Both the position numbers and the translations under genes were made by a program. DNA of 64,000 nucleotides, from positions 1-64,000 of the forward strand of contig DWZH01000100.1 of the NCBI GenBank assembly GCA_019118275.1, read 5' to 3'. The notes below the pieces were generated by a model that did not search any database, was not told the origin of the DNA, and was given only the letters and a program-made list of their open reading frames with translations. This document shows, piece after piece, positions 1,294 through 30,377 of this stretch. How positions within the stretch are numbered: position 1 is the first letter of the stretch; each line of letters opens with the position of its first letter. The stretch is from Candidatus Brachybacterium merdavium (GTDB taxonomy: Bacteria > Actinomycetota > Actinomycetes > Actinomycetales > Dermabacteraceae).

Positions 1294-1296
1294 GGT

Positions 1297-4313: not shown

Positions 4314-4344
4314 GGTGCTCCTCGTCGGTGCGGCGTGCGCCCGC

Positions 4345-6468
<2,124 letters not shown>

Positions 6469-7488: not shown

Positions 7489-7750
7489 AGCGCCTCCTGC
7501 GGTGGTCGTGGCCGCGTCAGCGGCGCGCGGCCAGTCTACGGAGCCGAGCGCCTTTGGCCGACAACGCCTTGCGACGAGGGTGTGAAGGTTCCTCGAAGGT
7601 CCTCGATGGACCGCTGTGATCCGGCGCGCGATCGCGCGCGACGGCTACCCTGACGAGCGCGATGCCGGTCCCGGCAGCGCGCCAGGGTCGGCATCCGCCG
7701 TCCTGTCACCATCCCCGCCACCCCCTCCGACCTCGGGAGAGGAGACCTCT

Positions 7751-10014: not shown

Positions 10015-11340
10015 GTGAAGACTGCTGTGGTCGCGCTGGGAAAGATCGGTCTGCCGCTCGCGGTGCAGTTCGCCGATGCCGGGCATGAGGTGATCGGGGT
10101 CGACACCAATCCGCGACAGGTGGAGCTGATCAATCAGGCCACCGAGCCGTTCCCCGGGGAGGCGCATCTGCAGGACAAGCTCTCGGAGCTGGTGCCGGCC
10201 GGTCGGCTGCGGGCGACCACGGACTACGCCGAGGCGATCCCGGGCGCGGATGCGATCGTGATCGTGGTGCCGCTGTTCGTCGACGACGCGAGCTGGGAGC
10301 CGGACTTCGCGTGGATGGACGCCGCCACCCGCTCCCTGGCCGAGCACATCACCCCGGGCACACTGGTCTCCTACGAGACGACCTTGCCGGTGGGCACGCT
10401 GCGCACCCGGTTCGTTCCGATGATCGAGGAGATCTCCGGGCTGCGGGAATCCCGCGACTTCTTCGCGGTGTTCTCCCCCGAGCGGGTGCTCACCGGTCGC
10501 GTCTTCGAGGACCTGCGCAAGTACCCCAAGCTGATCGGTGCGATCAGCGAGGCCGGCACGGCGCGTGCCCGCGAGTTCTACGAGTCGGCCCTGTCCTTCG
10601 ACGAACGGCCCGATCTCTCGCGCCCCAACGGCGTGTGGGACCTGGGCTCCCCGGAGGCCAGTGAGCTGGCCAAGCTGGCCGAGACCACCTACCGCGATGT
10701 CAACATCGCGCTGGCCAACGAGTTCGCGCTGTTCGCGCAGGACAACGCGATCGACGTGTACAAGGTGATCGAGGCCTCCAACTCCCAGCCCTACTCCCAC
10801 ATCCATCAGCCCGGCATCGCGGTCGGCGGGCACTGCATCCCGGTCTACCCGCGCCTGTACCTGTCGACGGATCCGAACGCGACCACGGTGCGCACCGCGC
10901 GCACCCTGAACGCCTCGGTGCCCGCGCACCTGGTCGAGCGGGCCGCGAACCTGCTGGGCGAGCTGAACGGGCTGAAGGCCGTGGTGCTGGGCGCCTCCTA
11001 CCGCACCGGGGTCAAGGAGACCGCCTTCTCCGGGGTCTTCCCCGTGGTCGAGGCGCTGCGCGCCCATGGCGCCGAGGTCGCCGTCCACGACACCTACTAC
11101 GACGACGCCGAGATCGCGGAGTTCGGCTGGGACCCCTACCATCTCGGCGAACCCGCGGACCTGGCGATCGTCCAGACCAACCACCCCGAGTACCGTGAGC
11201 TGACCGCTGCCGAGGTGCCCGGTATCAAGCTGCTGATCGACGGACGCAACATCACCACCGCCGCCCACTGGAAGGGCACCCCCCGCCTCGTCCTCGGCGA
11301 CGGATCCACCTCCACCCACCAGCAGGCGCAGGAGGCCTGA
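10015..11340 (+). CDS. UDP-sugar 6-dehydrogenase (UDP-GlcNAc/ManNAc dehydrogenase, WbpA/WecC-like)
   Basis: Rossmann VALGKIGLPLAVQFADAGHEVIGVDTN; catalytic Cys motif GGHCIPVYP; UDP-binding C-terminal domain. Confidence 0.88.
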   Translation: MKTAVVALGKIGLPLAVQFADAGHEVIGVDTNPRQVELINQATEPFPGEAHLQDKLSELVPAGRLRATTDYAEAIPGADAIVIVVPLFVDDASWEPDFAWMDAATRSLAEHITPGTLVSYETTLPVGTLRTRFVPMIEEISGLRESRDFFAVFSPERVLTGRVFEDLRKYPKLIGAISEAGTARAREFYESALSFDERPDLSRPNGVWDLGSPEASELAKLAETTYRDVNIALANEFALFAQDNAIDVYKVIEASNSQPYSHIHQPGIAVGGHCIPVYPRLYLSTDPNATTVRTARTLNASVPAHLVERAANLLGELNGLKAVVLGASYRTGVKETAFSGVFPVVEALRAHGAEVAVHDTYYDDAEIAEFGWDPYHLGEPADLAIVQTNHPEYRELTAAEVPGIKLLIDGRNITTAAHWKGTPRLVLGDGSTSTHQQAQEA

Positions 11341-11344
11341 CCCG

Positions 11345-11770
11345 ATGGGCGAGCACGATCTGATCCTCGGGCTGGGGCCGACGCTGGTCGGCAACCGCAC
11401 CATCATCGTCCAGCTGCTGCTGGTGCTGGGGATCGTGGGGATCGTCTCCTGGCTGTTCGTCAAGCGCGGGGCCAAGCAGCTGGCGGTGCGCCGTCTGCTG
11501 ATCATCGCCTTCGCGGTGTTCGCGGTGCTGACCGTGCTGTTCCCGGGGATGCTGTCGCGGGTGGCGAACCTGGTGGGCGTCGGCCGTGGCGCGGACCTGC
11601 TGCTGTATGCGACGGTGCTGGTGCTGCTGGGGTTCCTGGCCCTGCAGGAGGCCCGCACCAAGAACGCCGAGAAGCGCACCACCTACCTCGCCCGCCGCCT
11701 CTCGCTGGATGAGGCCGAGCAGCCGGCCGAGTACCGTCGGCGCGTGCTCGGGCCGCCCGACGACGCGTGA
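11345..11770 (+). CDS. DUF2304-like small membrane protein
   Basis: 141 aa with about three TM segments and a charged C-terminal tail; typical partner of DPM1-like GT2s. Confidence 0.75.
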   Translation: MGEHDLILGLGPTLVGNRTIIVQLLLVLGIVGIVSWLFVKRGAKQLAVRRLLIIAFAVFAVLTVLFPGMLSRVANLVGVGRGADLLLYATVLVLLGFLALQEARTKNAEKRTTYLARRLSLDEAEQPAEYRRRVLGPPDDA

Positions 11771-13728
11771 GCGGCCTGCCGGCGCTGGTCGCCGCAGCGA
11801 TCACCGTCCTGGCGGCGGCCTACCTGCCCGGGTTCGCCGCCGTGCGGCTGCTGGGCGGCTCGCGGTGGCTGGCCCTCGCTCTGGCGCCCGCGCTCGGGGC
11901 GGCTGTCGCGGGCACGGCCGCGATCGCGGCTCCCCTGGTCGGGCTGCGCTGGTCGCTGCTGCCCTTCCTGCTCGGTGCCGCTGTGCTGCTCGCCGTGGCC
12001 CTCGGGCTGCGCCGCCTGGACGTGCAGCTGCCCGCCACCGTCCTGGACGGTCCGCTCGGCCCGCGCCCCACGGTTCCCTTCGCAGGAGCCTGGATCGCCG
12101 CGGCAGCGGGTGTGGCCATCGCCCCGATCGTCTACCAGGCGGGTCGTGCCGATGCGGTCCTGGAGCGCTGGGACACCCTGTACCACCTCTCGGCGCTGCA
12201 GCGGATCCGGGAGACCGGGACCGCCTCCAGCCTGGACCTGGGCTCGGTGTCCAACTCGGCCGGTGACCCCACCCCCTATCCGGCCGGTTTCCATGCGCTG
12301 GCCTCGTTGGTGCCGGGTGTCGAGGTGCCGATCCTGCTCAACGGCGCGGTACTGGCCCTGGCGACGGTGCCGTGGGTCCTGGGGATCGCGCTGCTGGCGC
12401 GGGCACTCCTCCCCCAGGTGCCCTGGGCACCGTTCGCGGCAGCGGTCGTGGCGACGCTGATCCCGGCCTCCCCGCTGAACCTGTGGATCCACCTCTCCCC
12501 CATCCCGAACCTGATCGGCTCCGCGGTCCTGCCCGGGGCGCTGGCCGGCGCGGCTTCCCTCTGGGGCGCGCTGCTACCGCGATGGGTCCCGCGGGCGCCT
12601 GATCGGCCGAGCGGGGGCGGACCTGTCCTGCGGCCCGGGCTCGCTGCTCTGGGCGTGGTCGGGATCGCCGGTCTGGGGATGGGCGTGCTGCACCCCAACG
12701 TCGCGGTCACGGCCCTGATCCTGCTGACAGTGCTGACGGCCGTCACCTGCGCGCCGCACTGGCGCAGGCGGCCGTGGCTGATCGCGCTGCCGGTGGCCAC
12801 GATGGCGCCGGTGGCTCTGCTGAGCTATACCCCTCTCGGGGCCGCGGTCACCGGTTTCTCCGGTGGTCTGCAGGTGCCTTGGTGGACAGCGCTGGGCGAG
12901 GTCGTGCTGGGCCTGCTGACGGTGTGGCCGATGGCCCTCGGGGTGGTGCTGGCCGTCCTGTGGTGGCCCGGTCTGGTCAGCTCCTTCCGCGGCTCGGCCC
13001 GGTGGGTGGGTCCGGCGTGGATCGTGCTGGCCGTCCTCTATCTCGACGCCGCCCTCGACTCCCCGCTGAACCTGTCGGCCCTGTATTACCGCGGACAGGA
13101 CCGGATCGCGATGCCGCTGGCGATGCTCTCCGCCGTGCTGGTGGTGCCCGGTCTCCAGGCCTGGGCGCGCACCCTGGGGCCGGCGGGACCGACCGGCCGC
13201 CGCCACGGGGCGCGGCGGCCGCTGCTGACCGCGCTGGTGGTGCTGGGAGTCATCGCCGCGCTCACCTCGGTCCCTCCGCGTCTGGACAACGCCGCCAAGA
13301 ACCTCGCCGAGGACTATCCGGGCCGGGGCCGATTCCTGCAGGCCGATGAACGGGCCCTGTTCGAGCGGTACGTGCCGCAGATGGATCAGAGCGGCACCGT
13401 GCTGGCCAGCCCCTTCTCGGGAGCGGCGCACCTGTACGCGCTGTTCGGCCAGGACGTGCGGCTGCCCGTGGCCGGGATGGCCTACTCGGACCTGGACCGC
13501 GATCTGCTCTACGCCGTGGGCGAGGCGGCGACCGATCAGCAGGCCTGCGCCCTCCTCGAGGACAACGGGATCCGTTACGTCTACCAGGAGCACCGTCCCT
13601 ATCAGTTCCACCGGACCTCGGACTCCGTGAATCGTGGCACCGAGGCCTTGGGTCGGGTGCTGTTCGAGACGGACCATTCCCGGATGATCGAGATCGACTG
13701 CGGGACCGGGACGGCCGACGATGCTTGA
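11767..13728 (+). CDS. multi-pass membrane protein, DUF6541-like (putative GT-C-type glycosyltransferase)
   Basis: Many TM segments; N-terminal LPGFAAVRLLGG and C-terminal soluble domain resembling the product of 24069-26051. GTG start overlaps upstream TGA. Confidence 0.75.
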   Translation: MSGLPALVAAAITVLAAAYLPGFAAVRLLGGSRWLALALAPALGAAVAGTAAIAAPLVGLRWSLLPFLLGAAVLLAVALGLRRLDVQLPATVLDGPLGPRPTVPFAGAWIAAAAGVAIAPIVYQAGRADAVLERWDTLYHLSALQRIRETGTASSLDLGSVSNSAGDPTPYPAGFHALASLVPGVEVPILLNGAVLALATVPWVLGIALLARALLPQVPWAPFAAAVVATLIPASPLNLWIHLSPIPNLIGSAVLPGALAGAASLWGALLPRWVPRAPDRPSGGGPVLRPGLAALGVVGIAGLGMGVLHPNVAVTALILLTVLTAVTCAPHWRRRPWLIALPVATMAPVALLSYTPLGAAVTGFSGGLQVPWWTALGEVVLGLLTVWPMALGVVLAVLWWPGLVSSFRGSARWVGPAWIVLAVLYLDAALDSPLNLSALYYRGQDRIAMPLAMLSAVLVVPGLQAWARTLGPAGPTGRRHGARRPLLTALVVLGVIAALTSVPPRLDNAAKNLAEDYPGRGRFLQADERALFERYVPQMDQSGTVLASPFSGAAHLYALFGQDVRLPVAGMAYSDLDRDLLYAVGEAATDQQACALLEDNGIRYVYQEHRPYQFHRTSDSVNRGTEALGRVLFETDHSRMIEIDCGTGTADDA

Positions 13729-14833
13729 GGTGCTGCCTCGGACCGCCGGCACCCCGGAGGCCACCCCGACGCGCTGTTCACGGCAGCCCGACCTCCCGCC
13801 CGCGCGCCGCTACTCGCCGCTGCTGGACGTGATCCGCGTCGTGGCCGTCATCGGAGTGGTCGGGGTCCACGTCATCGCCGATCACGTGGACGCGGACGGA
13901 CCGGTGGCGATGCTGGTGCTGCGTTCGCTGCTGGCGACCGCGGTGCCGGCCTTCGTGATGATCTCGGGTGCCCTGAACCTGGCACCGACCGCGATGCGTC
14001 ACGGCTCCGGACCGTTCCTCGCCCGGCGGCTGCGGCGTCTGCTGCCCGCGACCGTGGCATGGACCGCGTTCTACGTGCTGGTGATGAACCTGTGGCTCTC
14101 CCCCGGGCCGACCTCGCTGCGCGGGGAGATCGCCGCTCTGCTCACGGCCTCCTCCTACCCGCACCTGTACTTCCTGCCCCTGATCATCGGCCTGACGGTG
14201 ATCACCCCGATCCTGGCGACCTACGTCTCCGGCTCCTCCCGGCGAGCGTGGATCACCGGTGGCCTCGCCGCGGCGTGGGCGCTGGGGGTGGCTGCGATGC
14301 CGTTCCTGACCGAGGGCCTGCTCGACGAGCCCATCGTCCCGCTGCAGCTGGGGGCGCTGACCTATTTCCTGCCGTACATCGGCTACTACGTGCTGGGCTG
14401 GGCGACCTGGTCGGCCCCACCGCGCCGACGGGTGGCCTGGTGGTTGCTGCTGGTCGCAGTGCCGCTGCTGATCGCCTCCACCGTGTGGGCCTACGCCTCG
14501 CCGGTCACGGAGATCCCGCCCGGCAAGGTCCTGCTGCCCACCTATCTGGCACCGACGGTGATGCCGCTGTCGCTCGCCCTGGTGATCTCGCTGCTGTCCC
14601 TGGGGCGCACCTGGCGGGTCGAAGAGCGCACGGAGCACATGCTGCGCAGAGTGGGGGACGCGACTTTCGGGGTGTTCCTGGTTCATTTCGCGGTCCTGAT
14701 GCTCTTGCGCGAGCTGGGGTTCCCGGAGAGCTCGATGCCGGCGGTGATCGCGCTGATCGTCGTGGTGACGCTCGGGTCGTTGGCCCTCACCGTGGTAGGC
14801 CAGAAGATCCCCCTCGTGCGCGAGGTGCTCTGA
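13721..14833 (+). CDS. acyltransferase family 3 membrane protein (surface glycan O-acyltransferase)
   Basis: LDVIRVVAVIGVVGVHVIAD near the N-terminus and about ten TM segments, typical of acyltransferase_3. Confidence 0.82.
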   Translation: MLEVLPRTAGTPEATPTRCSRQPDLPPARRYSPLLDVIRVVAVIGVVGVHVIADHVDADGPVAMLVLRSLLATAVPAFVMISGALNLAPTAMRHGSGPFLARRLRRLLPATVAWTAFYVLVMNLWLSPGPTSLRGEIAALLTASSYPHLYFLPLIIGLTVITPILATYVSGSSRRAWITGGLAAAWALGVAAMPFLTEGLLDEPIVPLQLGALTYFLPYIGYYVLGWATWSAPPRRRVAWWLLLVAVPLLIASTVWAYASPVTEIPPGKVLLPTYLAPTVMPLSLALVISLLSLGRTWRVEERTEHMLRRVGDATFGVFLVHFAVLMLLRELGFPESSMPAVIALIVVVTLGSLALTVVGQKIPLVREVL

Positions 14834-14875
14834 CGCTCGCGGCGCCCCGACGACCCGCAGCACCGTGAGGAGGCT

Positions 14876-16075
14876 TCAGCGACGCAGTGAGGCCAGGACC
14901 TGCTCGGCGGCCCTGCCCGCGCAGGCGGCGAGCGAGGCGTGCTGGAGGGTCCACCGGCGCAGATGCTCCGGGGCCGGGGCCTCTTCCCCGCTGAGGGCGG
15001 CGCTCATGGCTCCCGCGACCTGCTCGGCGTCGTAGTCGCAGGCCCAGCCGAGGCCGTTGTCACGGATCCGGTCGCGTGCCGCCCCCTCCCCGGCGTGGAT
15101 GACGGGGGTGCCCGTGGCGGTGGCCGCGTAGATCTTGGTGGGCAGGGCGAACTCGTAGCCCTGGCCGGGGGTGATCGAGGACAGACCGGCCACGGCACCG
15201 CGCAGCTGGGCCGCGACCTGCGAGGGCGGGATCTTGTCGCGGAATTCGATACCTTCGATGCCCTGCTCGCGCACGCGCGCCTCGAGCTCGTCACGCCCGC
15301 TGCCCTCGGAGAAGAACAGCAGCCGCGCCCGGGGATGCTCGGCGCGCACCTGGGCGAAGGCATCGATGAACACACCTGCTCCCTGCCATTCGGAGACCGT
15401 GCCGGCGTAGACGAAGCACGGTCCTGCCGCGCCGTCGTCCGCGACCGGGCCGTCGACGGTGAAGGTCTCGGTGTCGATGCCGTTGCCGACCATCACGAAG
15501 CCCTTTCGCGCCCCGGCCAGCTGCTCGAGCCGGTGCTGGACCCCCGGGGAGATGGTCAGCACCCGGGCGGCGCGCTTCCACACCGTGGTCTCGGCCCAGC
15601 GCAGCAGGGTGCGCACGGGGGTGGGCACCCCCTCGACGCTATCGGTGGCATCGGACCAGACATCGGCCGCGTAGAAGGTGTAGGGCACCCGGCGCAGCGC
15701 CGCCGCGACCATGCCGACCAAGCCGGTGGTGGGCGGCGGTTCGAGCACCAGGGCGTCCATCGGGCGCTGCAGCAGCAGGCGCAGGGCGAGGGGGGCGTCG
15801 AAGCTGAGGTAGGAGAGATAGCCGCGGACCTGTCCCTGCGAGTCCCGCTTCACGGGCCAGCGGGAGACCTTCCGGGCTCGCGAGCGGACCTTGCCCGCCC
15901 CCGGGACGGTGGTGGTCAGCACCGTCACGTCCGCCCCCGCGCGTTCGAGGGCGTTCACCAGCGCCTCCTGCCGGAAGGCCGCAGCGACCGGTTCCGGGGT
16001 GTAGACGCGGGTGGCGACCACCACGTGCGGCGGACGGGTCGCTCCGGTGGGCCGAGGGGTGCGGGGGCGGGGCAT
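14876..16075 (-). CDS. family 4 glycosyltransferase (WbuB-like)
   Basis: VVVATRVYTPEPVAAAFRQEALVNALERAGADVTVLT, GNGIDTETF, FVYAGTVSEWQGAGVFIDAFAQV. ATG at 16075 overlaps the TGA of wecB. Confidence 0.87.
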   Translation of the reverse strand: MPRPRTPRPTGATRPPHVVVATRVYTPEPVAAAFRQEALVNALERAGADVTVLTTTVPGAGKVRSRARKVSRWPVKRDSQGQVRGYLSYLSFDAPLALRLLLQRPMDALVLEPPPTTGLVGMVAAALRRVPYTFYAADVWSDATDSVEGVPTPVRTLLRWAETTVWKRAARVLTISPGVQHRLEQLAGARKGFVMVGNGIDTETFTVDGPVADDGAAGPCFVYAGTVSEWQGAGVFIDAFAQVRAEHPRARLLFFSEGSGRDELEARVREQGIEGIEFRDKIPPSQVAAQLRGAVAGLSSITPGQGYEFALPTKIYAATATGTPVIHAGEGAARDRIRDNGLGWACDYDAEQVAGAMSAALSGEEAPAPEHLRRWTLQHASLAACAGRAAEQVLASLRR

Positions 16076-17139
16076 CAGGCGCGCTCGATCAGGGCGGTGA
16101 CGCTGCGCTGGGAGGCCTTGCCGTCGCCGTAGTGCGGGGGCCGCTCGGCGGTCGGGGTGGGGCGCATCACCGAGTCGGCCAGGGTGGCGGGGTCGGTGAC
16201 CAGCTGGTTCCAGTCGTTGTCGAGGGTCTCGACCCATTCGGTCTCGGTGCGGACCGTGGAGCACGGTGTGCCCAGCAGATACGCTTCCTTCTGGAGCCCG
16301 CCGGAGTCGGTGACCACCGCGCGTGCGCACTGCACGGCATTGATCAGGTCCGGGTAGGCGAGGGGATCGCCGACGTGCACGGCGCCCCCTTCGAGAGGGA
16401 TGCCGGCGTCCTGGGCCCGGGCGACCAGGCGGGGGTGGGCCAGCAGCGCCAGTGGTATGTCCAGTGCCTGCAGAGAGGCGATGATGGCGCGCAGTCGGTC
16501 GGGGTCGTCGGTGTTGTCGGCCCGGTGGATGGTGGCCACCGCGAAGGGCTGGGCGGGGTCGATGCCGCCTGGCAGTCTCAGCGCGGTCCCGCGCACCGAG
16601 TCGGCCACCCGCAGGCACACGTCGGTCATCACGTCGCCGGTGACCAGGGTCCGCTCGGCCAGGCCTTCGGCGGCCAGGTGGGTGCGGGCGACCTCGGTGG
16701 GGGCCAGCAGCAGATCGGCGGCGTGGTCGGTCAGCACCCGGTTGTGCTCCTCGGGCATGCGCCGGTTGAACGAGCGCAGTCCGGCCTCGAGGTGGGCGAC
16801 TCGGCGGTGCATCTTGACCGCGGACAGGGTGCCGGCCAGCGTGGAGTTGGTGTCGCCGTAGACCAGGGTCCAGTCCGGTCGGTGCTCCTCGAGCACCTCG
16901 TCCATGCCCGCGAGCATCGCGCCGGTCTGGCGGCCGTGGGAGCCGGAGCCCACCGACAGGTTCACGTCCGGGGCCGGGATCCGCAGATCGGCGAAGAACA
17001 CATCGCTCATCGCGGCGTCGTAGTGCTGCCCGGTGTGGACGATCACGTGCTCGACATCGCCCTGCTGCGCCGCCGCATCGGCGATCGCGGCGAGCTTGAC
17101 GAACTGCGGGCGCGCGCCCACGACGGACAGGATCTTCAT
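16075..17139 (-). CDS. wecB: UDP-N-acetylglucosamine 2-epimerase (non-hydrolysing; WecB/WbpI-like)
   Basis: MKILSVVGARPQFVKLAAI, HTGQHYDAAMSDVFF, PEEHNRVLTDHAADLLLAPTE, TDSGGLQKEAYLLGTPC. Confidence 0.92.
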   Translation of the reverse strand: MKILSVVGARPQFVKLAAIADAAAQQGDVEHVIVHTGQHYDAAMSDVFFADLRIPAPDVNLSVGSGSHGRQTGAMLAGMDEVLEEHRPDWTLVYGDTNSTLAGTLSAVKMHRRVAHLEAGLRSFNRRMPEEHNRVLTDHAADLLLAPTEVARTHLAAEGLAERTLVTGDVMTDVCLRVADSVRGTALRLPGGIDPAQPFAVATIHRADNTDDPDRLRAIIASLQALDIPLALLAHPRLVARAQDAGIPLEGGAVHVGDPLAYPDLINAVQCARAVVTDSGGLQKEAYLLGTPCSTVRTETEWVETLDNDWNQLVTDPATLADSVMRPTPTAERPPHYGDGKASQRSVTALIERA

Positions 17140-17309
17140 AGGGCGATCTCTTCCTCTCGACCCCGGCGGTCGACCAGACGCACGAACCGGAGCGCAGGTA
17201 CAGTGAGCGTGCTCCACAATAGCCAACGGTCAGCGCCGTTCGGCACACCACGACACTGTCGAGGACGGCGCGGGCAGCCTCTCGCGCTCCGCTCGAGAAC
17301 GGACCATGC

Positions 17310-18677
17310 ATGACGTCGAACCCAGGCGTGAGGGATCCACGGATCGCCGTGCTCGTGTACAACGACGCTGCGAACGATTCGCGAGTGCTGAAGGAGTCCG
17401 CCTCGCTGCGTGACGAGGGCTATCAGGTGCGCATCATCGCTGTCGAACGGCGTGAACTGGGCCGGGCGGCGCAGACCACGGAGCTGCGCGAGGGACTGTG
17501 CCTGCAGCGGGTCCCGGAGTTCACGATCGAGCGGATCCTGCCGGCTCTGGCGCCGCTGTGGAGGCACCTGATCCGTCATGAGGCCGTGGCCGAACCGGCG
17601 GCCGGCCCGCCCGCCCCCGGGCCCCTGCGTCCCGGGGCACCGCTTGCGAGCACCCGTGCGCGCGTGCTGCGCGGCCTGCGCAATGTCGGCGAACGCGCCT
17701 ACCGCACGCTCGCGCTCGGCACCTACTGGGTCAACGCCGCCCGGGCAGGTCACGACTTCGCGCCGGACGTGGTGCACGCCAACGACGCCAACACGCTGGT
17801 CCCGGCCCTGGCGATCCGTGCCCTGTCCCCCACCCCGGTGGGCATCATCTACGACTCCCATGAGCTGTGGCGTCACCGCAATGTGCGCCCAGGCCGGCTG
17901 CTGGCCCCCCTGGTCGAGCACCTCACCGAGGCGATCGGCATCCGCCAGGTGGACGGCGTCATCACCGTCTCGCCCTCCATCGCCGACTGGCTGCGATCGA
18001 CCTACCGTCTGCCGACCACACCGACGCTCGTGCGCAACGTCCCCGTGGCGGACGGGGTCCCCGACCGCTCCACCGGGGTGCTCCGCGAGCGCGCGGGTCT
18101 GTCCCCGCAGGACCGCGTGATCGCCTACGGCGGACGCATCACCACCGCTCGCGGCATCGAGGAGACCATCGCCGCTCTGCCCCACCTCGACGAGGACGTG
18201 CACTTCGTCCTGCTCGGCTATGGGGAGGCGGCCGCCCTGGAGGAGGTCACCGAGCAGGCGCACGCGCACGGGGTCGCGCATCGGGTGCACCTGATCGGTG
18301 CCGTGGCCCCGGACGAGGTCTCCCGCGCGCTGGCCGACGGAGACGTCGCCGTCGTCCATGTGCTCCCGATCTGCCTGTCCTACCGGTACGCCCTGCCCAA
18401 CAAGCTGTTCGAGTCGATCCGGGCCGGCCTGCCGATCGCGGCGGCCGACCTTCCCGATATGAAGGCCGTGGTCGAGGAGCTGGGGGTCGGTGAGGTGTTC
18501 CAGGGCAGCAGCTCCCGAGATCTCGCCGAGGCGCTGCGCGCGATCCTCCATCGACCGGGCCGGTACCAGGCCGCCGCACGGGCGGCCGCGCCCCACCTGA
18601 CCTGGGAGCAGGAGACGGACCAGATGCTGGAGATGTATCGAGGCGTGCTCCGTGCGCAGGGACGAGGGCGCTCATGA
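17310..18677 (+). CDS. family 4 glycosyltransferase
   Basis: VYNDAANDSRVLKESASLRDEGYQVRIIAVER, VVHANDANTLVPALAI, IAYGGRITTARGIEETIAALPHL. Stop overlaps the next start (ATGA). Confidence 0.86.
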   Translation: MTSNPGVRDPRIAVLVYNDAANDSRVLKESASLRDEGYQVRIIAVERRELGRAAQTTELREGLCLQRVPEFTIERILPALAPLWRHLIRHEAVAEPAAGPPAPGPLRPGAPLASTRARVLRGLRNVGERAYRTLALGTYWVNAARAGHDFAPDVVHANDANTLVPALAIRALSPTPVGIIYDSHELWRHRNVRPGRLLAPLVEHLTEAIGIRQVDGVITVSPSIADWLRSTYRLPTTPTLVRNVPVADGVPDRSTGVLRERAGLSPQDRVIAYGGRITTARGIEETIAALPHLDEDVHFVLLGYGEAAALEEVTEQAHAHGVAHRVHLIGAVAPDEVSRALADGDVAVVHVLPICLSYRYALPNKLFESIRAGLPIAAADLPDMKAVVEELGVGEVFQGSSSRDLAEALRAILHRPGRYQAAARAAAPHLTWEQETDQMLEMYRGVLRAQGRGRS

Positions 18678-22094: not shown

Positions 22095-23998
22095 CAGAGG
22101 TCCTCCTGCCGATCGGGGGACGGTGGGCCCTCCGGCTGATCGGGGGGCACGTCCTTCCCGAGCTGGTCCGTCTCGCTCCGGGGGACCTGCTCGGCCCCGG
22201 TCAGCCCGGCGAGCGCCGCCTGCTCGGCGAACGCCGGGACCGCCTCGATCACCTCGTCGAAGGTGCCCGCGGCGGCGATGGTCCCTTCCGACATGTAGAA
22301 GACCACGTCGCAGTGCTGGATGGTGGCCAGCCGATGGGCGATGGTGATCGTGGTGACGTCTTCACCCAGGTCACGGATCGCGCCGGTGACGGCGGACTCG
22401 GTCTTGGTGTCCAGAGCGCTGGTGGCCTCGTCCAGGACCAGCACGCTCGGCTCCGCGTACATGCCCCGGGCGATGCCGAGCCGCTGCCTCTGGCCGCCGG
22501 AGAGGGTCATGCCGCGTTCACCGATCCGGCCGCGCGTACCCTCGGGCCGGTCCTCGATCACATCCAGCATCTGGGCGCGGTCCAGCGCGGCGCGCACCCG
22601 TGCTTCATCGACCTCCTCGGGATCCCAGGTGAGGGCGATGTTCTCGCCCACGGAGACATCGAACAGCGCCACCTCCTGGGGCACGTAGCCGACCGAGGAG
22701 CGCCACTGCCGCAGCACCGTGGTCATGTCGGTTCCGCCGATGAGGATCCGCCCGCTGCTGGGGGTCAGCAGCCCCAGCAGCAGATCCACGAGCGTGGACT
22801 TGCCCGCGCCGGAGCTGCCGACGAAGGCGACGGAGGAGCCGGCCGGGATCTGCAGGGACACGTCGCGCACCGCGGGCTCGTCCCGGCCCGGATAGGTGAA
22901 GGTGACGCCTTCGAGGACGATGTCGTGAAGACCGTGCTCGAGGGTGTCGGAGTCGGGGAGCTCCTTGCGCTCGACCGCTTCTCGGGCGAACTCGATGTCG
23001 TCGATGATGTAGTCGGCGAAGGCCGCATTGGTCAGGATGCGGTTTTGCGTGGACTGGAAGCGGGTGAGGGAGGGCACCAGGCGGAAGCCGGCCACGGCGA
23101 ACAACGCGACCGATGTCATCGCGGCCGTCGGCCCCGCGTCGGGGAGGCCGCCGAGGTACCCGACCCCGCCGACGACGACGAACCCGCCGACCATGCCGGC
23201 GTCGAGCACGAAGCGGGGCATCTGGTTGTAGTACTGGGCGAAGGCGCGGGTGGTGGCCGCTTTCGAGCGCCGATCGGCCACGATGTCGGCGACGTCGTTC
23301 TCGTTGCCCTTGAGGGTGAGCTCCTTGAGCGCCGCCAGCACCTCCCCCAGGAGCCGTACCACGCGGATCGAGTTGTCCCGGTTCACGGCGCCGTTCCTCA
23401 CGGCTTTCGGCGTGACCACCCGCGAGAGCAGGAGGGCGATCAGCCCCAGGTAGACGAAGGTGGCCAGGGCGATCTTCCAGTCCATGATGAGCAGGCCGAT
23501 ACTGATCACGCTGATGGTGGCGAACTCGGCGACCACGGTCATCGAGGGCATCAGCACGTTGGCCACCACCGCTGCGACCCCGGAGTCGACCATGCGGATG
23601 ATCTCCTGGGTCGACTTGGAGGTGCGGTCGACCCAGGAGGCCGACATGTAGGAGCGGAACAGGGTCTGTCCGATCGCCACCTCGTGCTGCGCGAACTTCT
23701 GGGTGGCGATGCGGATGGTCAGCAGGTTCAACAGGCTCTTGACGATGATCAGCGCCACGAAGGTGCCGACCAGGAGCATCATCTCCTCGAAGGTCTTCAG
23801 CTCCCATCCGACGAGCGGGACGGTGACCACCTGACCGGGGTTCATCAATCCGGGGATGACGACGGCGATCGCCCCGAGCGCGACGACGTCGAGCAGCGCG
23901 AGGACGCTCATCACCGCACCGAACATCCACAGGAAGCGCCGGGAGCGCGCCGGGATGACCGACAACGTGCGCAGGACAATCCTGATCGTCTGCTTCAC
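22094..23998 (-). CDS. ABC transporter, fused permease/ATPase (MsbA/PglK-like lipid-linked glycan flippase)
   Basis: N-terminal TM domain; Walker A GSSGAGKST, signature LSGGQRQRLGIARGMY, Walker B VLVLDEATSALD. Confidence 0.88.
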   Translation of the reverse strand: MKQTIRIVLRTLSVIPARSRRFLWMFGAVMSVLALLDVVALGAIAVVIPGLMNPGQVVTVPLVGWELKTFEEMMLLVGTFVALIIVKSLLNLLTIRIATQKFAQHEVAIGQTLFRSYMSASWVDRTSKSTQEIIRMVDSGVAAVVANVLMPSMTVVAEFATISVISIGLLIMDWKIALATFVYLGLIALLLSRVVTPKAVRNGAVNRDNSIRVVRLLGEVLAALKELTLKGNENDVADIVADRRSKAATTRAFAQYYNQMPRFVLDAGMVGGFVVVGGVGYLGGLPDAGPTAAMTSVALFAVAGFRLVPSLTRFQSTQNRILTNAAFADYIIDDIEFAREAVERKELPDSDTLEHGLHDIVLEGVTFTYPGRDEPAVRDVSLQIPAGSSVAFVGSSGAGKSTLVDLLLGLLTPSSGRILIGGTDMTTVLRQWRSSVGYVPQEVALFDVSVGENIALTWDPEEVDEARVRAALDRAQMLDVIEDRPEGTRGRIGERGMTLSGGQRQRLGIARGMYAEPSVLVLDEATSALDTKTESAVTGAIRDLGEDVTTITIAHRLATIQHCDVVFYMSEGTIAAAGTFDEVIEAVPAFAEQAALAGLTGAEQVPRSETDQLGKDVPPDQPEGPPSPDRQEDL

Positions 23999-24068
23999 TC
24001 TGCGTTCTCCTGTTCCATCTGCGCCGTCTCGGGGCGCAGAGCTCGGTCGATCCCCGTGGAGAGCCCGA

Positions 24069-26051
24069 TCAGCATGGGAGCTCCAGCTCGTACAGAGCGT
24101 AAGGCCCCTGGCTGCTCACCAGCGTCAGAGCCGAGTCGGGGATGTCGTGGACTCCCTTCCACGGCGCAGATGCCTCCGGATCCAGGGACGGTCCCGAGAA
24201 CTCTGAGCTGTCACGGTACAGATGGGTGGGACCGATCCGTTCCAGCGCCCCGCAGATCTCGCGCCGGTCATCGGGTCGTGTGATGTAGTTCGCGATCAGC
24301 TGGTGATCCCGCGTCTGCGGTGTCGCCATGGTCGGGTAGACGGTCTCCACCCCGCCGAGCGACCAGTACAGGGTGGCGCCGTCGCGAGGATCGGCCAGGA
24401 CGACGGCGTCCTCGGGCAGGTCGGCAGCCGTCCGCTCGATGAACTCCCGCTCCTCGGGCGGCGCATAGGGCGAGAGCTGGGCGCCGTAGTTGGTGTAGGC
24501 CAGCGATCCCATCAGCGGCAGCCGAGCCGGGGCCACCAGCGCGAGGAGGACGGTGAGCATCAGGACGGCGAGCGCCACGAGGCCCGGCCACGGGGCGGTG
24601 CGGTCCCCCCGGCGGCCGGCGGCCAGGGCGACCACCGCGCGGGAGACCAGGATCAGAAGCAGGCACATCATCAGCGGGGCGATCCGTTCCCGCGCCCCGT
24701 ACCAGGGGTTGACCAGGGCCACGGCCAGCGGGTTGTCGAGCTGGGTGGACAGGCCCAGCAGCACGGTGAGAACGGCTCCGAGGGCGGCGGCGATGCCGAT
24801 CTCCTCTCCGCGTCGCATCGTCACGGCGGCGCCGATGGCAGCGAGGATCCAGAGTGCCGCGACCGGCCAGATCGGGGACTCGATCACCGGGATCCGTGGG
24901 GAGTCCACCAGGATCTGCCGGAGCACCGCGGCCAAGGGGTCACGGCTGGGCCGGGTCAGGTGCATGCCCGACAGGAGTGTTCCGGACAGGACCACGAACG
25001 CTCCGGCCCCGGCCAGGGCCGCCACCGCCTGCAGCATCCCGCGGCGCGGGAGGTCATCACGGACGACCCGGCCGATCCCGCGGACCAGCAGCAGCACTCC
25101 TCCCGGCACGGCCAGGGAGAACAGGATCGACGGGTGGGCGAGCGCCGTCCCGGCGATGATCGCCAGGTGCCCGGCCGCAGCCGGGAGGCGGAGAGGTCCC
25201 CGGGGATCGTCGACCAGGCGGATCACCGAGGCGAGAGCCACGGGCAGGCACAGCACCCCCAGCACGATCGGCCACAGACCCATCACCAGTGCCATCGCCG
25301 GGGTGCTGAGGAACAGGGTGGAGGCCGCGGCGCCGGCGGCTGCCGCGGCCGCGGCTGCCCGACGGGGGCCGAGCACCGACGCGATCATCGCAGCGATCGC
25401 CGTCGGGAGCGCGGCCAGTGTCGCGAGCATCATGGCGTTGGCCGAGGCGACCGTCCCGAATGGCAGCAGTGCGGCAAGGACTGCCCAGGTCACCGGGTAG
25501 AAGGTGGGTTCACCGTAGATGTCGATCAGCGCGGTGGTCAGGAAGGCGTCGCCGCTGTCGCGGATGAAAGCGATCGAGGAGTGGTGGAAGAACGCGTCGT
25601 AACTGCCGTTGAGGGTATCGATACCGCCCATGCGCGATGCGGCGGAGGCCACGAGCAGCACTCCGAAGGCCATGGCGATCGCGGTGACGACCCCTCGCGC
25701 CCGGACCGGCATGAGGCCCCGCCCCTCCTCGCCCCCGGGCTCATCGGCCCCGGACGCTCCGGTCCGCGACGGCGCGCGGCCGGGTTCCCCTCGGCGCCCG
25801 GAGCCGAGCCGCCAGCGGCGGAGCGCTCGGAGCGCGCCCACCAGCACGAGCACCCCGGCTGCCACGGTCACGGCGTGCCAGGGGATGCCGAGGAGACGGT
25901 AGAGGCCGGTCAGCGCCACGATCGCGAGCACCGTGACCGGAGGTGCCCATCCCCACTGGATCGGCACCCGGGCTCCGGCCGCGCGCAGCAGCAGCCAGCC
26001 GGGCAGCGTCAGCACGCCCCAGGCGACCAGGAGGGGGATGATCCAGTTCAC
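24069..26051 (-). CDS. multi-pass membrane protein, DUF6541-like (putative GT-C-type glycosyltransferase)
   Basis: 660 aa with many TM segments; C-terminal domain resembles that of 11767-13728 (LADPRDGATLYWSLGG.../ASPFSGAAHLYALFGQ...). Confidence 0.75.
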   Translation of the reverse strand: MNWIIPLLVAWGVLTLPGWLLLRAAGARVPIQWGWAPPVTVLAIVALTGLYRLLGIPWHAVTVAAGVLVLVGALRALRRWRLGSGRRGEPGRAPSRTGASGADEPGGEEGRGLMPVRARGVVTAIAMAFGVLLVASAASRMGGIDTLNGSYDAFFHHSSIAFIRDSGDAFLTTALIDIYGEPTFYPVTWAVLAALLPFGTVASANAMMLATLAALPTAIAAMIASVLGPRRAAAAAAAAGAAASTLFLSTPAMALVMGLWPIVLGVLCLPVALASVIRLVDDPRGPLRLPAAAGHLAIIAGTALAHPSILFSLAVPGGVLLLVRGIGRVVRDDLPRRGMLQAVAALAGAGAFVVLSGTLLSGMHLTRPSRDPLAAVLRQILVDSPRIPVIESPIWPVAALWILAAIGAAVTMRRGEEIGIAAALGAVLTVLLGLSTQLDNPLAVALVNPWYGARERIAPLMMCLLLILVSRAVVALAAGRRGDRTAPWPGLVALAVLMLTVLLALVAPARLPLMGSLAYTNYGAQLSPYAPPEEREFIERTAADLPEDAVVLADPRDGATLYWSLGGVETVYPTMATPQTRDHQLIANYITRPDDRREICGALERIGPTHLYRDSSEFSGPSLDPEASAPWKGVHDIPDSALTLVSSQGPYALYELELPC

Positions 26052-26091
26052 CGTACCGACCCTGAACTCGCGGACGTCCCCGGCGCCACGG

Positions 26092-27591
26092 TCACCGGCC
26101 CGGCGCGTCGGGGCGCAGCGCGTGCTCGTATCCCTCGATCACCCGATCCGGGTGGCGATGCTCCACCGCCCAGCGACGGGCGGCGAGGGTCTCGGCCTCG
26201 TACCGGCCGGGATCCTGCAGCTCGAGGACACGGCGCACGGCCTCCTCGACATCGGAGACCACCCAGTCGGCGCTGTAGACCGAGGCGGCGCCCCCGTAGC
26301 CCAGCGCGTCGGGCCAGTCGCGGATGACCGCCGGGCAGCCCGTGGCCAGGCCCTCCATCACGGATTCGTGAGTTCCCTCGCCGTTGGATGCGGACACCAC
26401 CACACCGGCGCTGGACAGGATCTCCGGCACGTCTCGGCGCACCCCGAGCATCTCCACCGCCCGCGGGTCGAAGGAAGCGAGCCTGGCGCGCACACGTCTT
26501 TGATAAGCGTTCTCGTCCGATGCTGCAGGGAGACCGGGGCCGACCAGCTGTAGGCGGAAGCGCTCGTCGTGGCGCCGCAGACGCTCCAGCATCTCGAGAC
26601 TGAACAGCACGTCCTTGATCTCGCGGTTCCATCCGATCTGCACCAGGGTCCGGAGGTTGCGCGGCTCCTCCGAGAGCTCGCCGAGACCGCGGCCGAGCAG
26701 GTTGGAGACATACCGGGTCTCGACCTCTCGTGCGGCCGGCGCCACGGCGTCCACGAGATGGCGCACGGGCGGGGACACGTGCAGGAGTCGGTCGATGACG
26801 GAGTGGTCGTGCAGCAGCGGGAAGGGTGTGAAGACCTCGAAGCGATGGTACCGGCCGACCAGCAGGCGCGGACGCCGGTCGAGCAGGGACACCCAGGTCA
26901 GAACATGGTGGCCCCACTCGACGAGGACGACGTCGGCCCAGTCGTAGGCGTCTGCGACCCGAGCGGGGGTCGGGATCCGGGCCCCCGCGGTGACGAGGTC
27001 GTGGCGCGCCCGGATGACCTGCTCCCGGTCGGGATGTTCGTCACCGGACAGGTCCTCGACCTCGATCTCGCGGATCTCATACCGGCCCGTGGCGCGCAGG
27101 GCGTCCAGGACCGGGCGGATGAAGGTCCAGTTCTCCTGGGCGATCACCGCGAGCCTGACCGGGCTCCCCTCCGGCCGGTTCCGAGCCACTGGCCGGGGAG
27201 GCCGGCTGCTCGGGGGGATCTCCGTGCTCAGCAGCACCGCTCCCGTCCGTGAGCGTCGCAGAGGTCTCAGGAAATGTTCCGGATCAGCGACCAGCGGGGA
27301 CCCTCCGGCACTGTGCAGGGCCGGGTGGTAGCTGAGGCGCAGGGCCTTGTCGAACCAGCTGAGCGCGGCGTCTACCCGTCCGGCGTCCAGAGCTCGATCG
27401 GCCCGGGACAGGAGCTCGTCGCGATCCCGCAGCCAGTCGTAGTCCCTGCCCCGGTGGGACAGCTCCTCCTGGGCCGAGAAGTAGATGCCCATCCCCCCGA
27501 CTGTTCCAGGCAGGTGCCGGGTGACCCGCGAGATCCTGCGAAGACCCGTCTGGAGCAGCCGACGGAGGTCAGGCACCGGCGTCGGCTCCAT
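26092..27591 (-). CDS. family 4-like glycosyltransferase with N-terminal extension
   Basis: LVQIGWNREIKDVLFSLEMLERLRRH, VVVSASNGEGTHESVMEGLATGCPAVIRDWPDALGYGG; short TPR-like N-terminal segment. Start uncertain (27591 or 27612). Confidence 0.8.
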   Translation of the reverse strand: MEPTPVPDLRRLLQTGLRRISRVTRHLPGTVGGMGIYFSAQEELSHRGRDYDWLRDRDELLSRADRALDAGRVDAALSWFDKALRLSYHPALHSAGGSPLVADPEHFLRPLRRSRTGAVLLSTEIPPSSRPPRPVARNRPEGSPVRLAVIAQENWTFIRPVLDALRATGRYEIREIEVEDLSGDEHPDREQVIRARHDLVTAGARIPTPARVADAYDWADVVLVEWGHHVLTWVSLLDRRPRLLVGRYHRFEVFTPFPLLHDHSVIDRLLHVSPPVRHLVDAVAPAAREVETRYVSNLLGRGLGELSEEPRNLRTLVQIGWNREIKDVLFSLEMLERLRRHDERFRLQLVGPGLPAASDENAYQRRVRARLASFDPRAVEMLGVRRDVPEILSSAGVVVSASNGEGTHESVMEGLATGCPAVIRDWPDALGYGGAASVYSADWVVSDVEEAVRRVLELQDPGRYEAETLAARRWAVEHRHPDRVIEGYEHALRPDAPGR

Positions 27592-28588
27592 CCAAGCGGA
27601 CCACGCTCGCATCGCGCGCGGACTCCAGCACCGCTTCGACGGTGCGCACGGTGTGCAAGCCCTCGCGCATGGTCACGATGTTGGTGCCATCGGAGGTGAT
27701 GGCATCGCGGAAGGCGGTGTGCTCGGTGTACAGGGGCTCGGTGCGCTGCAGGGAGTAGGTGATCGAGTCGCCCTCGCTGACACCGCGGAAGGAGGCCATC
27801 GACTCCCACAGGTTGGTGGCCTTCTCACCGTTGGCGTGGAAGGTCAGGTCCGCATTCAGGGTGTCGGCGACCAGAGCGCCGTCCTGCCCCGTCACCACGG
27901 TCATCCGCTCCTTGAAGGGCGACAGCCAGTTCACCATGTGGTTGGTGATGGTGCCGTCGGCCAGGCACCCGGCGACGGAGACCATGTCCTCGTCCTCCCG
28001 GCCGGAGCGGCGCGTGGACGTCGCCGCGACCTGAGCATACGGGGACTGGGACACCCAGGCCGTCAGGTCCAGGTCATGGGTGGCGAGGTCCTTGACCACA
28101 CCGACGTCAGCGATCCGTGCGGGGAAGCCGCCTTGGCGGCGCGTGGCGATCTGGTAGATCTCCCCCAGCTGGCCGTCGGCGATCCGTCGGCGCATCTCCT
28201 GCAGCGCCGGATTGTACCGCTCGATGTAGCCCACGGCGCCAACCAGCCCGGCATGCTCGAACGCCGCGGTGATCTCCTCGGCTTCGCCGATGTCGAAGGC
28301 CAGGGGCTTCTCGACCAGGGTGTGGACCCCGGCCTCGGCCAGGCGCAGCGCCACGTCCCGGTGGAACTGGGTGGGCACCGCCACCACCGCGTAGTCGATG
28401 CCGGCGGCGATCAGAGCCTCCACGTCCGGCAGGATCTCCAGACCCGCCGCCGCACCGTGAGGGTCGCCATGAGCATCTGCCACAGCCACCAGGTCCACGC
28501 CCTCGAGGGCTTTGAGGTTGCGGGCGTGATGGCGGCCCATCATGCCCAGACCGATCAGTCCGGCCCGCAGATTCCTGCCCATGCTCAT
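27569..28588 (-). CDS. Gfo/Idh/MocA oxidoreductase, UDP-GlcNAcA 3-dehydrogenase-like (WbpB/WlbA)
   Basis: LIGLGMMGRHHARNLKALEGVDLVAVAD, EKPLAFD motif; overlaps the aminotransferase gene. Confidence 0.85.
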   Translation of the reverse strand: MSMGRNLRAGLIGLGMMGRHHARNLKALEGVDLVAVADAHGDPHGAAAGLEILPDVEALIAAGIDYAVVAVPTQFHRDVALRLAEAGVHTLVEKPLAFDIGEAEEITAAFEHAGLVGAVGYIERYNPALQEMRRRIADGQLGEIYQIATRRQGGFPARIADVGVVKDLATHDLDLTAWVSQSPYAQVAATSTRRSGREDEDMVSVAGCLADGTITNHMVNWLSPFKERMTVVTGQDGALVADTLNADLTFHANGEKATNLWESMASFRGVSEGDSITYSLQRTEPLYTEHTAFRDAITSDGTNIVTMREGLHTVRTVEAVLESARDASVVRLDGADAGA

Positions 28589-29694
28589 GCCCCTGCCTTC
28601 GCCACCGTGTTCACGGCCTGGACGATTCGGTCCCGGTCCTCCTCGCTGACCCCGGGATGGACCGGCAGCGACAGCACCTCGGCCACCAGCCGGTCCGTCA
28701 CCGGCAGGTCCAGCTCCGTCGCGAACGTCGGCAGACGATGCACCGGCGTCGGGTAGTACACCCCGCACCCCACCTGGTGCTCCTCGCGCAGCGCGCTCGC
28801 GAATTCATCCCGCTCCGCCGCGCTGGCACCCTCGATCCGCACCGTGTACTGGTGATACACGTGGGTGGCCCGCTCTCGCACCACAGGAGTCACCACGCCG
28901 TCGAGATGGGCGTCGAAGAAGCTCGCGAGCTCCTGGCGGCGCGCGGTCCACTCGGGCAGCCTGCCCAGCTGGACCCGGCCGATCGCGGCATGGATATCGG
29001 TCATCCGGTTGTTGAATCCGGCGACCTCGTTGGCGTACTGCGTCTCCATACCCTGGTTGCGCAGCAGCCGCACCTGGCGTGCGTGCTCGCCGCTGCCGCA
29101 GGAGACCATGCCGCCCTCGCCCGAGGTCATGTTCTTGGTCGGGTACAGGGAGAACATCCCGGCCTGCCCGAAGGTGCCCACCTGCTGGCCGTCCCAGGTC
29201 GCGCCATGAGCCTGGGCGGCGTCCTCGAACACCCACAGGTCGTGCTCACGTGCGATCGCCATGATCTGGTCCATCGGCGCCGGGTGCCCGTACAGGTGCA
29301 CCGGTTGGATCCCCACCGTGCGTTCGGTGATCGCGGCCCGCACCGCGGCCGGATCCACCGCGAACGTCTCGGGGTCGACGTCGACGAACACTGGCACGCC
29401 CCCGCAGACCGCCACGGAGTTCGCCGTCGCCGCGAAGGTGAACGACGGCACGATCACCTCGTCGCCTGCGGACAGCCCCAGCGCCAGCATCCCCAGATGC
29501 TGCCCCGAGGTCCCCGAGTTGACGGCCACGCATTCCCGGCCGCCCGCCAGTGCCGCCCCGAACTCCTGCTCGAACGCCGCCACCTCCGGGCCCTGCGCCA
29601 CCATCCCGGAGGCCAGCACCCGGTCGACCGCGTCCCGCTCGTCCTGTCCGATGATCGGCTTGGCAGGGGGGATCATCGTCCGCTGTGTGTTCAT
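28585..29694 (-). CDS. DegT/DnrJ/EryC1/StrS aminotransferase (WbpE/WlbC-like)
   Basis: AVNSGTSGQHLGMLALGLSAGDEVIVPSFTF, EDAAQAHGA, PLP-lysine motif FSLYPTKNMTSGEGGMV. Confidence 0.9.
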   Translation of the reverse strand: MNTQRTMIPPAKPIIGQDERDAVDRVLASGMVAQGPEVAAFEQEFGAALAGGRECVAVNSGTSGQHLGMLALGLSAGDEVIVPSFTFAATANSVAVCGGVPVFVDVDPETFAVDPAAVRAAITERTVGIQPVHLYGHPAPMDQIMAIAREHDLWVFEDAAQAHGATWDGQQVGTFGQAGMFSLYPTKNMTSGEGGMVSCGSGEHARQVRLLRNQGMETQYANEVAGFNNRMTDIHAAIGRVQLGRLPEWTARRQELASFFDAHLDGVVTPVVRERATHVYHQYTVRIEGASAAERDEFASALREEHQVGCGVYYPTPVHRLPTFATELDLPVTDRLVAEVLSLPVHPGVSEEDRDRIVQAVNTVAKAGA

Positions 29695-30377
29695 TCGGTG
29701 GCTCCGTCCTTGTCGTCGGGGTCCTCGAGCTCGGCCGGGCGCGGGGCGTCGGTCACGGGTGAGGTGGCGAGCTGCAGCCCGCCGGAGGTCTCGTCGGGGA
29801 TGTACCACTCCCCGGTCGTGGGGCACACCCAGGCGTCGGTGCCGTCCGAGGCCGGCAGGAGCTTCTCGCCGGAGCGTCCCACCCAGGCCAGGCGCTTGGC
29901 GGGCACACCCGCCACCAGAGCGTGCGGGGGGACGTCCTTCACGACGGTGGCGCCGGCGGCGACCATGGCCCAGGCGCCGATGGTCACCGGGGCCACGCAC
30001 ACGGCACGGGCACCGATCGAGGAGCCCTGCTCGCAGGTCACGCCCACCGGATCCCAGTCGCTGGCGGATTTCGGCGTCAGGTCGGGGTTCACGGCACGCG
30101 GGAAGTGGTCGTTGGTGAACACGGCCGCGGGGCCGACGAAGACCCCGTCTGCCAATCGGGCGGGCTCGTAGACCAGCGCGTAGTTCTGGATCTTGCAGCC
30201 GTGACCCATCCGGACGTCGGTGCCGATGTAGGCGCCGCGGCCGATCACGCAGCTCTCGCCGAGCGTCGCGCCCTCACGGACCTGGGCGAGGTGCCAGATG
30301 GAGCTGCCGTCACCGATGCTCGCCGCGTCCGAGACGTCAGCTCCGGGAGCGACCCGGTAGGCGGGTTTGGAAGTCAT
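29691..30377 (-). CDS. left-handed beta-helix N-acetyltransferase (WbpD/WlbB-like)
   Basis: Hexapeptide repeats (IGDGSSIWHLAQVREGATLGESCVIGRGAYIGTDVRMGHGCKIQNYALVYEPA), short tail; start overlaps the aminotransferase (ATGA). Confidence 0.88.
   Translation of the reverse strand: MTSKPAYRVAPGADVSDAASIGDGSSIWHLAQVREGATLGESCVIGRGAYIGTDVRMGHGCKIQNYALVYEPARLADGVFVGPAAVFTNDHFPRAVNPDLTPKSASDWDPVGVTCEQGSSIGARAVCVAPVTIGAWAMVAAGATVVKDVPPHALVAGVPAKRLAWVGRSGEKLLPASDGTDAWVCPTTGEWYIPDETSGGLQLATSPVTDAPRPAELEDPDDKDGATE

Follow-up and report, generated by a model that had tools for sequence, protein, structure and literature searches.

Which sugar does the glycan gene island of Candidatus Brachybacterium merdavium supply, and by which route? 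The island lies in a stretch of 64,000 nucleotides of contig DWZH01000100.1 (hereafter the window). A first-pass annotation had read five of its genes as step-for-step homologues of the Wbp enzymes of Pseudomonas aeruginosa and the Wlb enzymes of Bordetella, and had predicted from them that a Gram-positive envelope glycan would contain a diacetamido uronic acid. From sequence comparisons, we consider it very probable that the five genes provide the five activities that make UDP-2,3-diacetamido-2,3-dideoxy-D-mannuronic acid (UDP-ManNAc3NAcA) from UDP-N-acetylglucosamine (UDP-GlcNAc), this being the predicted product in Brachybacterium; the order in which the activities are used is a separate matter. 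The assignment is supported by the diagnostic residues of the epimerase, by an acetyltransferase resembling WlbB, by strict co-occurrence of the genes across genomes, and by their kinship to the utr genes of Streptomyces, whose product has been proven by nuclear magnetic resonance (NMR). These findings uphold the envelope-glycan prediction as far as the five-enzyme set is concerned; descent from the Wbp pathway step for step does not survive.

A candidate enzyme for each step

All five open reading frames were found where they had been annotated, uninterrupted from start to stop, and each protein scores above the curated Pfam cut-off for the expected enzyme family. There is one candidate per step, that is, for 6-oxidation, 3-oxidation, 3-amination, 3-N-acetylation and 2-epimerisation. 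A UDP-sugar 6-dehydrogenase, which would oxidise C6 to the uronic acid, is encoded on the forward strand at 10015-11340 (UDPG_MGDP_dh_N, central and C domains). The other four genes are on the reverse strand: a 2-epimerase of the WbpI type, predicted to act on UDP-2,3-diacetamido-2,3-dideoxyglucuronic acid (UDP-GlcNAc3NAcA), at 16075-17139 (Epimerase_2); a putative 3-dehydrogenase of the Gfo/Idh family and of the UDP-GlcNAc 3-dehydrogenase (GnnA/archaeal) type at 27569-28588 (GFO_IDH_MocA and GFO_IDH_MocA_C3); a DegT 3-aminotransferase dependent on pyridoxal phosphate (PLP) at 28585-29694 (DegT_DnrJ_EryC1); and a left-handed beta-helix 3-N-acetyltransferase of the WlbB/WbpD type at 29691-30377 (Hexapep). 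The last three are referred to as the trio. The motifs on which the annotation had drawn, GGHCIP in the 6-dehydrogenase and the PLP lysine within SLYPTKN of the aminotransferase, are present, and the aminotransferase gene is coupled on both sides by the ATGA overlaps it described, at the junctions with the N-acetyltransferase GCCACCGAATGAACACA and the 3-dehydrogenase GGGGCATGAGCATG. As it also stated, the 6-dehydrogenase and epimerase genes stand apart from the trio in this window; they adjoin it in other Actinomycetes. The genome holds one non-hydrolysing epimerase and one dehydrogenase of the window type (E<=1e-30), and the closest named relative of the 3-dehydrogenase, 85% identical, is from Brachybacterium sp. 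SGAir0954.

The best match of the epimerase among solved structures is the UDP-2,3-diacetamido-2,3-dideoxyglucuronic acid 2-epimerase of Thermus thermophilus (8sxv, 338 bits), with lower scores for 4neq (229 bits) and E. coli WecB (118 bits), and it is 49-50% identical to WbpI proteins. Three changes are specific to UDP-GlcNAc3NAcA in the Thermus enzyme: Trp307 in place of a conserved Arg, Tyr96 in place of His/Gln, and Ala18 in place of Leu/Met (PMC10622841). The window epimerase and all 75 close relatives have equivalents of Trp307 and Tyr96, and the window enzyme also has the equivalent of Gln14, a position occupied by Glu in WecB. Position 307 is Arg in all 14 distant WecB-type copies from related genomes (29-43% identical); the window epimerase lacks this conserved Arg, which in the WecB type lies at the C3 hydroxyl, and has Trp there instead. 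Assignment of the enzyme to the UDP-GlcNAc3NAcA type is thus strongly supported by comparison of its residues. An epimerase of the same class occurs on a Priestia plasmid beside a dehydrogenase and aminotransferases, with no Gfo/Idh gene among the listed neighbours.

The acetyltransferase finds its best match in the Protein Data Bank (PDB) in a WlbB-type structure (3mqg, 138 bits), with which it shares a C-terminal CPxTGE stretch, and it shares 41% identity with WbpD from a Pseudomonas wbp operon. The aminotransferase scores 403 bits with the DegT profile and 205 bits with WbpE structures; its identity to haloarchaeal proteins (43-45%, with 45% for Haloferax volcanii) is slightly above that to WbpE proteins (37-40%). 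Acetyltransferases 60-86% identical to that of the window persist in five genomes that lack the other four genes (G013, G026, G032, G062 and G069).

The distribution of the genes binds them together. Among the 98 relatives, the 3-dehydrogenase and aminotransferase co-occur in 59 of 59 cases with no exceptions. In the 89 good genomes of the order, the 53 that have the 3-dehydrogenase all have the aminotransferase (53/53), the acetyltransferase (53/53) and the 6-dehydrogenase (53/53), and 46 of them have the epimerase; the dehydrogenase was found without the trio in one of the 89, an assembly of 530 contigs (G037). Across 247 genomes sampled from the whole class, the dehydrogenase is present in 48 of 51 with the 3-dehydrogenase and in none of the 196 without it. 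The aminotransferase gene is immediately upstream of the 3-dehydrogenase gene in 79 of 80 named loci, the remaining contig being too short to tell, and in the 54 loci of at least 20 kb the acetyltransferase (48 loci), dehydrogenase (36) and epimerase (25) genes lie within 10 kb. A chance grouping of common sugar enzymes is ruled out by this co-occurrence and adjacency. Seven good genomes of the order carry the trio and dehydrogenase genes without any 2-epimerase at E<=1e-30, which makes the epimerase the optional part of the module.

These data bear on the possibility that the island serves two sugars, the epimerase and dehydrogenase making UDP-N-acetylmannosaminuronic acid in the manner of WecB and WecC while the trio makes UDP-2,3-diacetamido-2,3-dideoxyglucose (UDP-GlcNAc3NAc) for some other residue. 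The genes are split within the island, as such a division would have it, and the dehydrogenase scores higher with WecC-type than with WbpA-type enzymes. We nonetheless regard it as very unlikely. At the positions of Arg, His/Gln and Glu in WecB, the epimerase carries Trp, Tyr and Gln. The dehydrogenase, for its part, tracks the trio even where there is no epimerase at all: a WecC would rely on a 2-epimerase of its own genome for UDP-N-acetylmannosamine, and the seven good genomes just mentioned are without one at E<=1e-30, so that the substrate of the dehydrogenase there must have the gluco configuration and the enzyme is not simply WecC. Separate WecB/WecC-type pairs were, moreover, found within the same genus. 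In the 89 good genomes the WecB-type and WecC-type copies are tied to each other and show no linkage to the trio (p=0.37 and 0.83). On the epimerase residues, together with the genomes that have trio and dehydrogenase and no epimerase, we reject the WecB/WecC reading of the pair.

Kinship to known wall polymers

The Streptomyces griseus utr locus offers the closest comparison with a known product. Its genes for an aminotransferase, an oxidase, a dehydrogenase, an acetyltransferase and a 2-epimerase lie near the genes for ribosomal proteins L21 and L27 (PMC13274773), and utrA, B, D, J and H comprise the five enzyme types found here, serving a teichuronic-acid-like polymer carried on wall teichoic acid (PMC13274773). 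Relatives of the window proteins, 55-66% identical, are encoded beside rplU/rpmA in four of five Streptomyces-like genomes (3-6 SsgA-type proteins each) and likewise in named species, among them S. globisporus, S. parvus and S. sindenensis; judged by these Streptomyces relatives, which include counterparts of utrA, B, D, H and J, the rplU/rpmA loci appear to match the S. griseus utr locus. The Brachybacterium genes differ in being spread over a 20-kb island with galactofuranose (Galf), Wzm/Wzt and LytR-CpsA-Psr (LCP) genes and in not lying beside rplU/rpmA. The S. griseus type includes TarS/TarM-like UtrC and UtrF and coupling of the polymer to wall teichoic acid. ManNAc3NAcA was shown by NMR in the polymer of S. 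griseus, which has utrH; in S. antibioticus, which has no utrH, GlcNAc3NAcA alone is found (PMC13274773). An optional epimerase fits this chemistry, its presence going with ManNAc3NAcA and its absence with GlcNAc3NAcA alone.

The same comparison raises the possibility that the Brachybacterium glycan contains only or mainly residues derived from UDP-GlcNAc3NAcA, with a minor or different role for the epimerase. The S. antibioticus set does without utrH in this way, and even in S. griseus the polymer is linked through GlcNAc3NAcA (PMC13274773). We think this unlikely: the island does have an epimerase, a gene whose presence goes with ManNAc3NAcA in the pair of Streptomyces under comparison.

The predicted end product, UDP-ManNAc3NAcA, is familiar from other systems. 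A wall or matrix polysaccharide of Cutibacterium acnes, like the glycan predicted here an actinobacterial wall polymer with this sugar, has two ManNAc3NAcA residues per repeat by NMR, its genes not being linked to the structure in that report (PMC6598116); four of the genes lie within one 21-kb locus in a Cutibacterium sp. (L192). Since the Streptomyces utr and C. acnes polymers carry ManNAc3NAcA, Gram-positive envelopes with a diacetamido uronic acid are already known, and the Brachybacterium island is a further member of this group rather than its first case.

Several observations weigh against the assignment. No in vitro assays of the Utr proteins were found. The relatedness of the genomes makes the co-occurrence p-values too small, although the pattern nonetheless recurs in many families. 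The dehydrogenase and epimerase genes of this genome do not share an operon with the trio. Both dehydrogenases score below the NCBIfam equivalog cut-offs (197 of 450 and 246 of 750), and the exact substrates assigned to them are putative. Finally, two of the three named epimerase features, Trp and Tyr, are present and the third is not: the equivalent of Ala18 is Leu in the window epimerase and in all 75 close relatives, Streptomyces included. Ala18, known from a single enzyme, is an accessory feature beside a substrate-binding Lys, and since the overall similarity agrees with the Trp and Tyr, we regard the Leu as lineage variation.

Dehydrogenase lineage and the order of steps

The comparison with the Wbp and Wlb enzymes gives a divided result. 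The aminotransferase, acetyltransferase and epimerase are clearly related to WbpE, WbpD and WbpI, with the identities given above, and the predicted end product is alike, but the 6- and 3-dehydrogenases belong to other subfamilies and the Gram-negative polymer is an O-antigen rather than a Gram-positive wall glycan. Our yardstick for Wbp was a complete wbp operon on a plasmid of Pseudomonas frederiksbergensis (L250), in which wbpA alone is named in the record and the other genes were assigned by order and family. The 6-dehydrogenase is 28% identical to this WbpA (145 bits), as against 35-37% (200-232 bits) for haloarchaeal and Pyrococcus enzymes; its scores with archaeal or WecC-type enzymes, 153-232 bits, are all above that for WbpA, and its best PDB match is 4r16 (220 bits). 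In a tree, it groups with the enzymes of haloarchaeal five-gene operons (support 99/95), and WbpA falls outside the clade. The 3-dehydrogenase matches haloarchaeal proteins in BLASTP at E=1e-22 to 1e-37; with WbpB, it reaches E=0.004 for the Deinococcus protein and has no match to that of the Pseudomonas wbp operon. With NF040723, the NCBIfam profile of archaeal UDP-GlcNAc 3-dehydrogenases, the window protein scores 197 bits, the haloarchaeal ones 223-226, a relative from S. globisporus 195 and each of the two WbpB proteins 25. The nearest solved fold to an AlphaFold model of the enzyme (mean pLDDT, a per-residue confidence score, 88) is that of Acidithiobacillus GnnA (7bvj/7bvk). The branches leading to WbpB and GnnA in the 3-dehydrogenase tree are long and the exact branching there is unsure, so the conclusion that the enzyme is not a WbpB draws on the pairwise and profile scores beside the tree. 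Identity, tree and profile scores thus rule out strict Wbp orthology for both dehydrogenases: by these comparisons they are not WbpA and WbpB orthologues and represent an enzyme lineage other than that of the Pseudomonas pathway.

The haloarchaeal yardsticks were two operons that hold acetyltransferase, aminotransferase, Gfo/Idh, dehydrogenase and 2-epimerase genes together on plasmids, L252 (4814-10077; H. volcanii pHV4) and L257 (8001-13291; Haloarcula pelagica), and two more, L251 and L258, without the epimerase. The genes of L252 and L257 are annotated by family only and as wecB, and similarity to the Thermus enzyme places their epimerases in the UDP-GlcNAc3NAcA type. Both window dehydrogenases group with these systems, but they and the aminotransferase are only 28-45% identical to the haloarchaeal proteins; the window acetyltransferase is nearer to bacterial WbpD than to its haloarchaeal counterpart, and the epimerase resembles the bacterial and haloarchaeal enzymes to much the same degree. 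Methanococcus, too, has genes for a GlcNAc3NAcA-containing N-glycan. GnnA and GnnB, which lead to 2,3-diamino-2,3-dideoxyglucose in the lipid A of Acidithiobacillus without 3-N-acetylation, C6 oxidation or epimerisation, carry out the same C3 oxidation and amination, and the substrate of GnnA is UDP-GlcNAc, not a uronic acid.

Because both dehydrogenases are kin to the haloarchaeal enzymes, the 3-dehydrogenase to GnnA as well, and neither is a Wbp orthologue, the P. aeruginosa step order need not hold, and we put at about even the chance that Actinobacteria use a second, archaeal-type route in which C3 is finished first and C6 is oxidised on UDP-GlcNAc3NAc. The Gfo/Idh enzyme would then oxidise C3 of UDP-GlcNAc, the DegT enzyme would aminate it and the beta-helix enzyme would acetylate the new amine; the UDP-sugar dehydrogenase would oxidise C6 after this C3 chemistry, and the epimerase would invert C2 last, giving the precursor of a wall-linked acidic heteroglycan. 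Alternatively, the same five enzymes may reach the same product in the P. aeruginosa order, with C6 oxidised first and the Gfo/Idh enzyme acting on the resulting uronic acid, UDP-GlcNAcA, like WbpB or WlbA. We give this alternative a substantial chance, though one short of even. The characterised bacterial route to the ManNAc3NAcA sugar oxidises C6 first (PMC10622841); the utr authors, who assigned their enzymes by modelling, assumed the Wbp step order (PMC13274773); and the dehydrogenase and trio are almost never apart across genomes. On the other hand, the 6-dehydrogenase lies outside the WbpA clade, and the Gfo/Idh enzyme is no kin of WbpB, matching instead GnnA and the model for archaeal enzymes that act on UDP-GlcNAc.

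In one genome (G022, contig C1), the 6-dehydrogenase (2318419-2319740) and the 3-dehydrogenase (2336006-2337003) are each split over two frames, pointing to assembly frameshifts or decay of the pathway. A DegT and Gfo/Idh pair on a plasmid of Streptomyces sp. NBC_00057 (L260, 6883-9005), the Gfo/Idh protein about 52% identical to that of the window, has no dehydrogenase, acetyltransferase or epimerase gene nearby; its neighbours are TauD, flavin adenine dinucleotide (FAD) and phosphopantetheine-binding genes, and the pair perhaps serves a natural product that carries a 3-amino sugar.

Assembly context and meaning for the Actinomycetes

Judging from the neighbourhood, export and attachment of the glycan would proceed through the adjoining Wzm/Wzt, Galf and LCP genes. 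By Pfam, a block on the reverse strand (520-5505) encodes a Wzt ATPase (520-1293), a Wzm permease (1297-2310), a GlfT2-like galactofuranosyltransferase (2217 to about 4400) and a UDP-galactopyranose mutase (4345-5505), and a forward-strand gene at 7616-9025 encodes an LCP ligase (PF03816, 142 bits), a candidate for attaching the glycan to the wall. The Galf/Wzm/Wzt block also adjoins uronate genes in Arthrobacter and Sinomonas (loci L159, L162, L163, L169 and L189), which suggests one heteroglycan carrying both Galf and the diacetamido uronic acid; the block is likely the assembly context of that glycan. The gene at 14876-16078 on the reverse strand encodes a family 4 glycosyltransferase (Pfam Glyco_trans_4_4/1_4). 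In 12 named loci a relative of this gene comes immediately downstream of the 3-dehydrogenase gene, and this placement makes the window enzyme a candidate uronosyltransferase for the diacetamido sugar. The island further holds two DUF6541 membrane proteins, two acyltransferases and one ATP-binding cassette exporter. A DUF2304 gene lies close to a family 2 glycosyltransferase gene of the polyprenyl-phosphate-sugar-synthase-like kind (11345-11770 and 9106-9822), and such genes also occur near uronate genes in Actinomycete loci L161, L163, L164, L172, L185 and L190. The island ends at about 31.5 kb, where purE/purK (identified by eye) are followed by biotin-dependent carboxylase and transport genes.

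As a sugar pathway the island is ordinary; it is useful as a genome-wide marker. In Streptomyces, the receptor for antibacterial umbrella toxins includes ManNAc3NAcA, a sugar found in the C. acnes wall polymer as well, and the module is widespread in Actinomycetes, with trio and dehydrogenase together in about one in five genomes of the class-wide sample. Genomes could therefore predict the presence of the sugar, and the presence of the epimerase its gluco or manno form. The non-Wbp dehydrogenases turn the order of steps into a simple, testable question; if C3 is indeed finished first, the Wbp order known from Gram-negatives would not be the general bacterial one.

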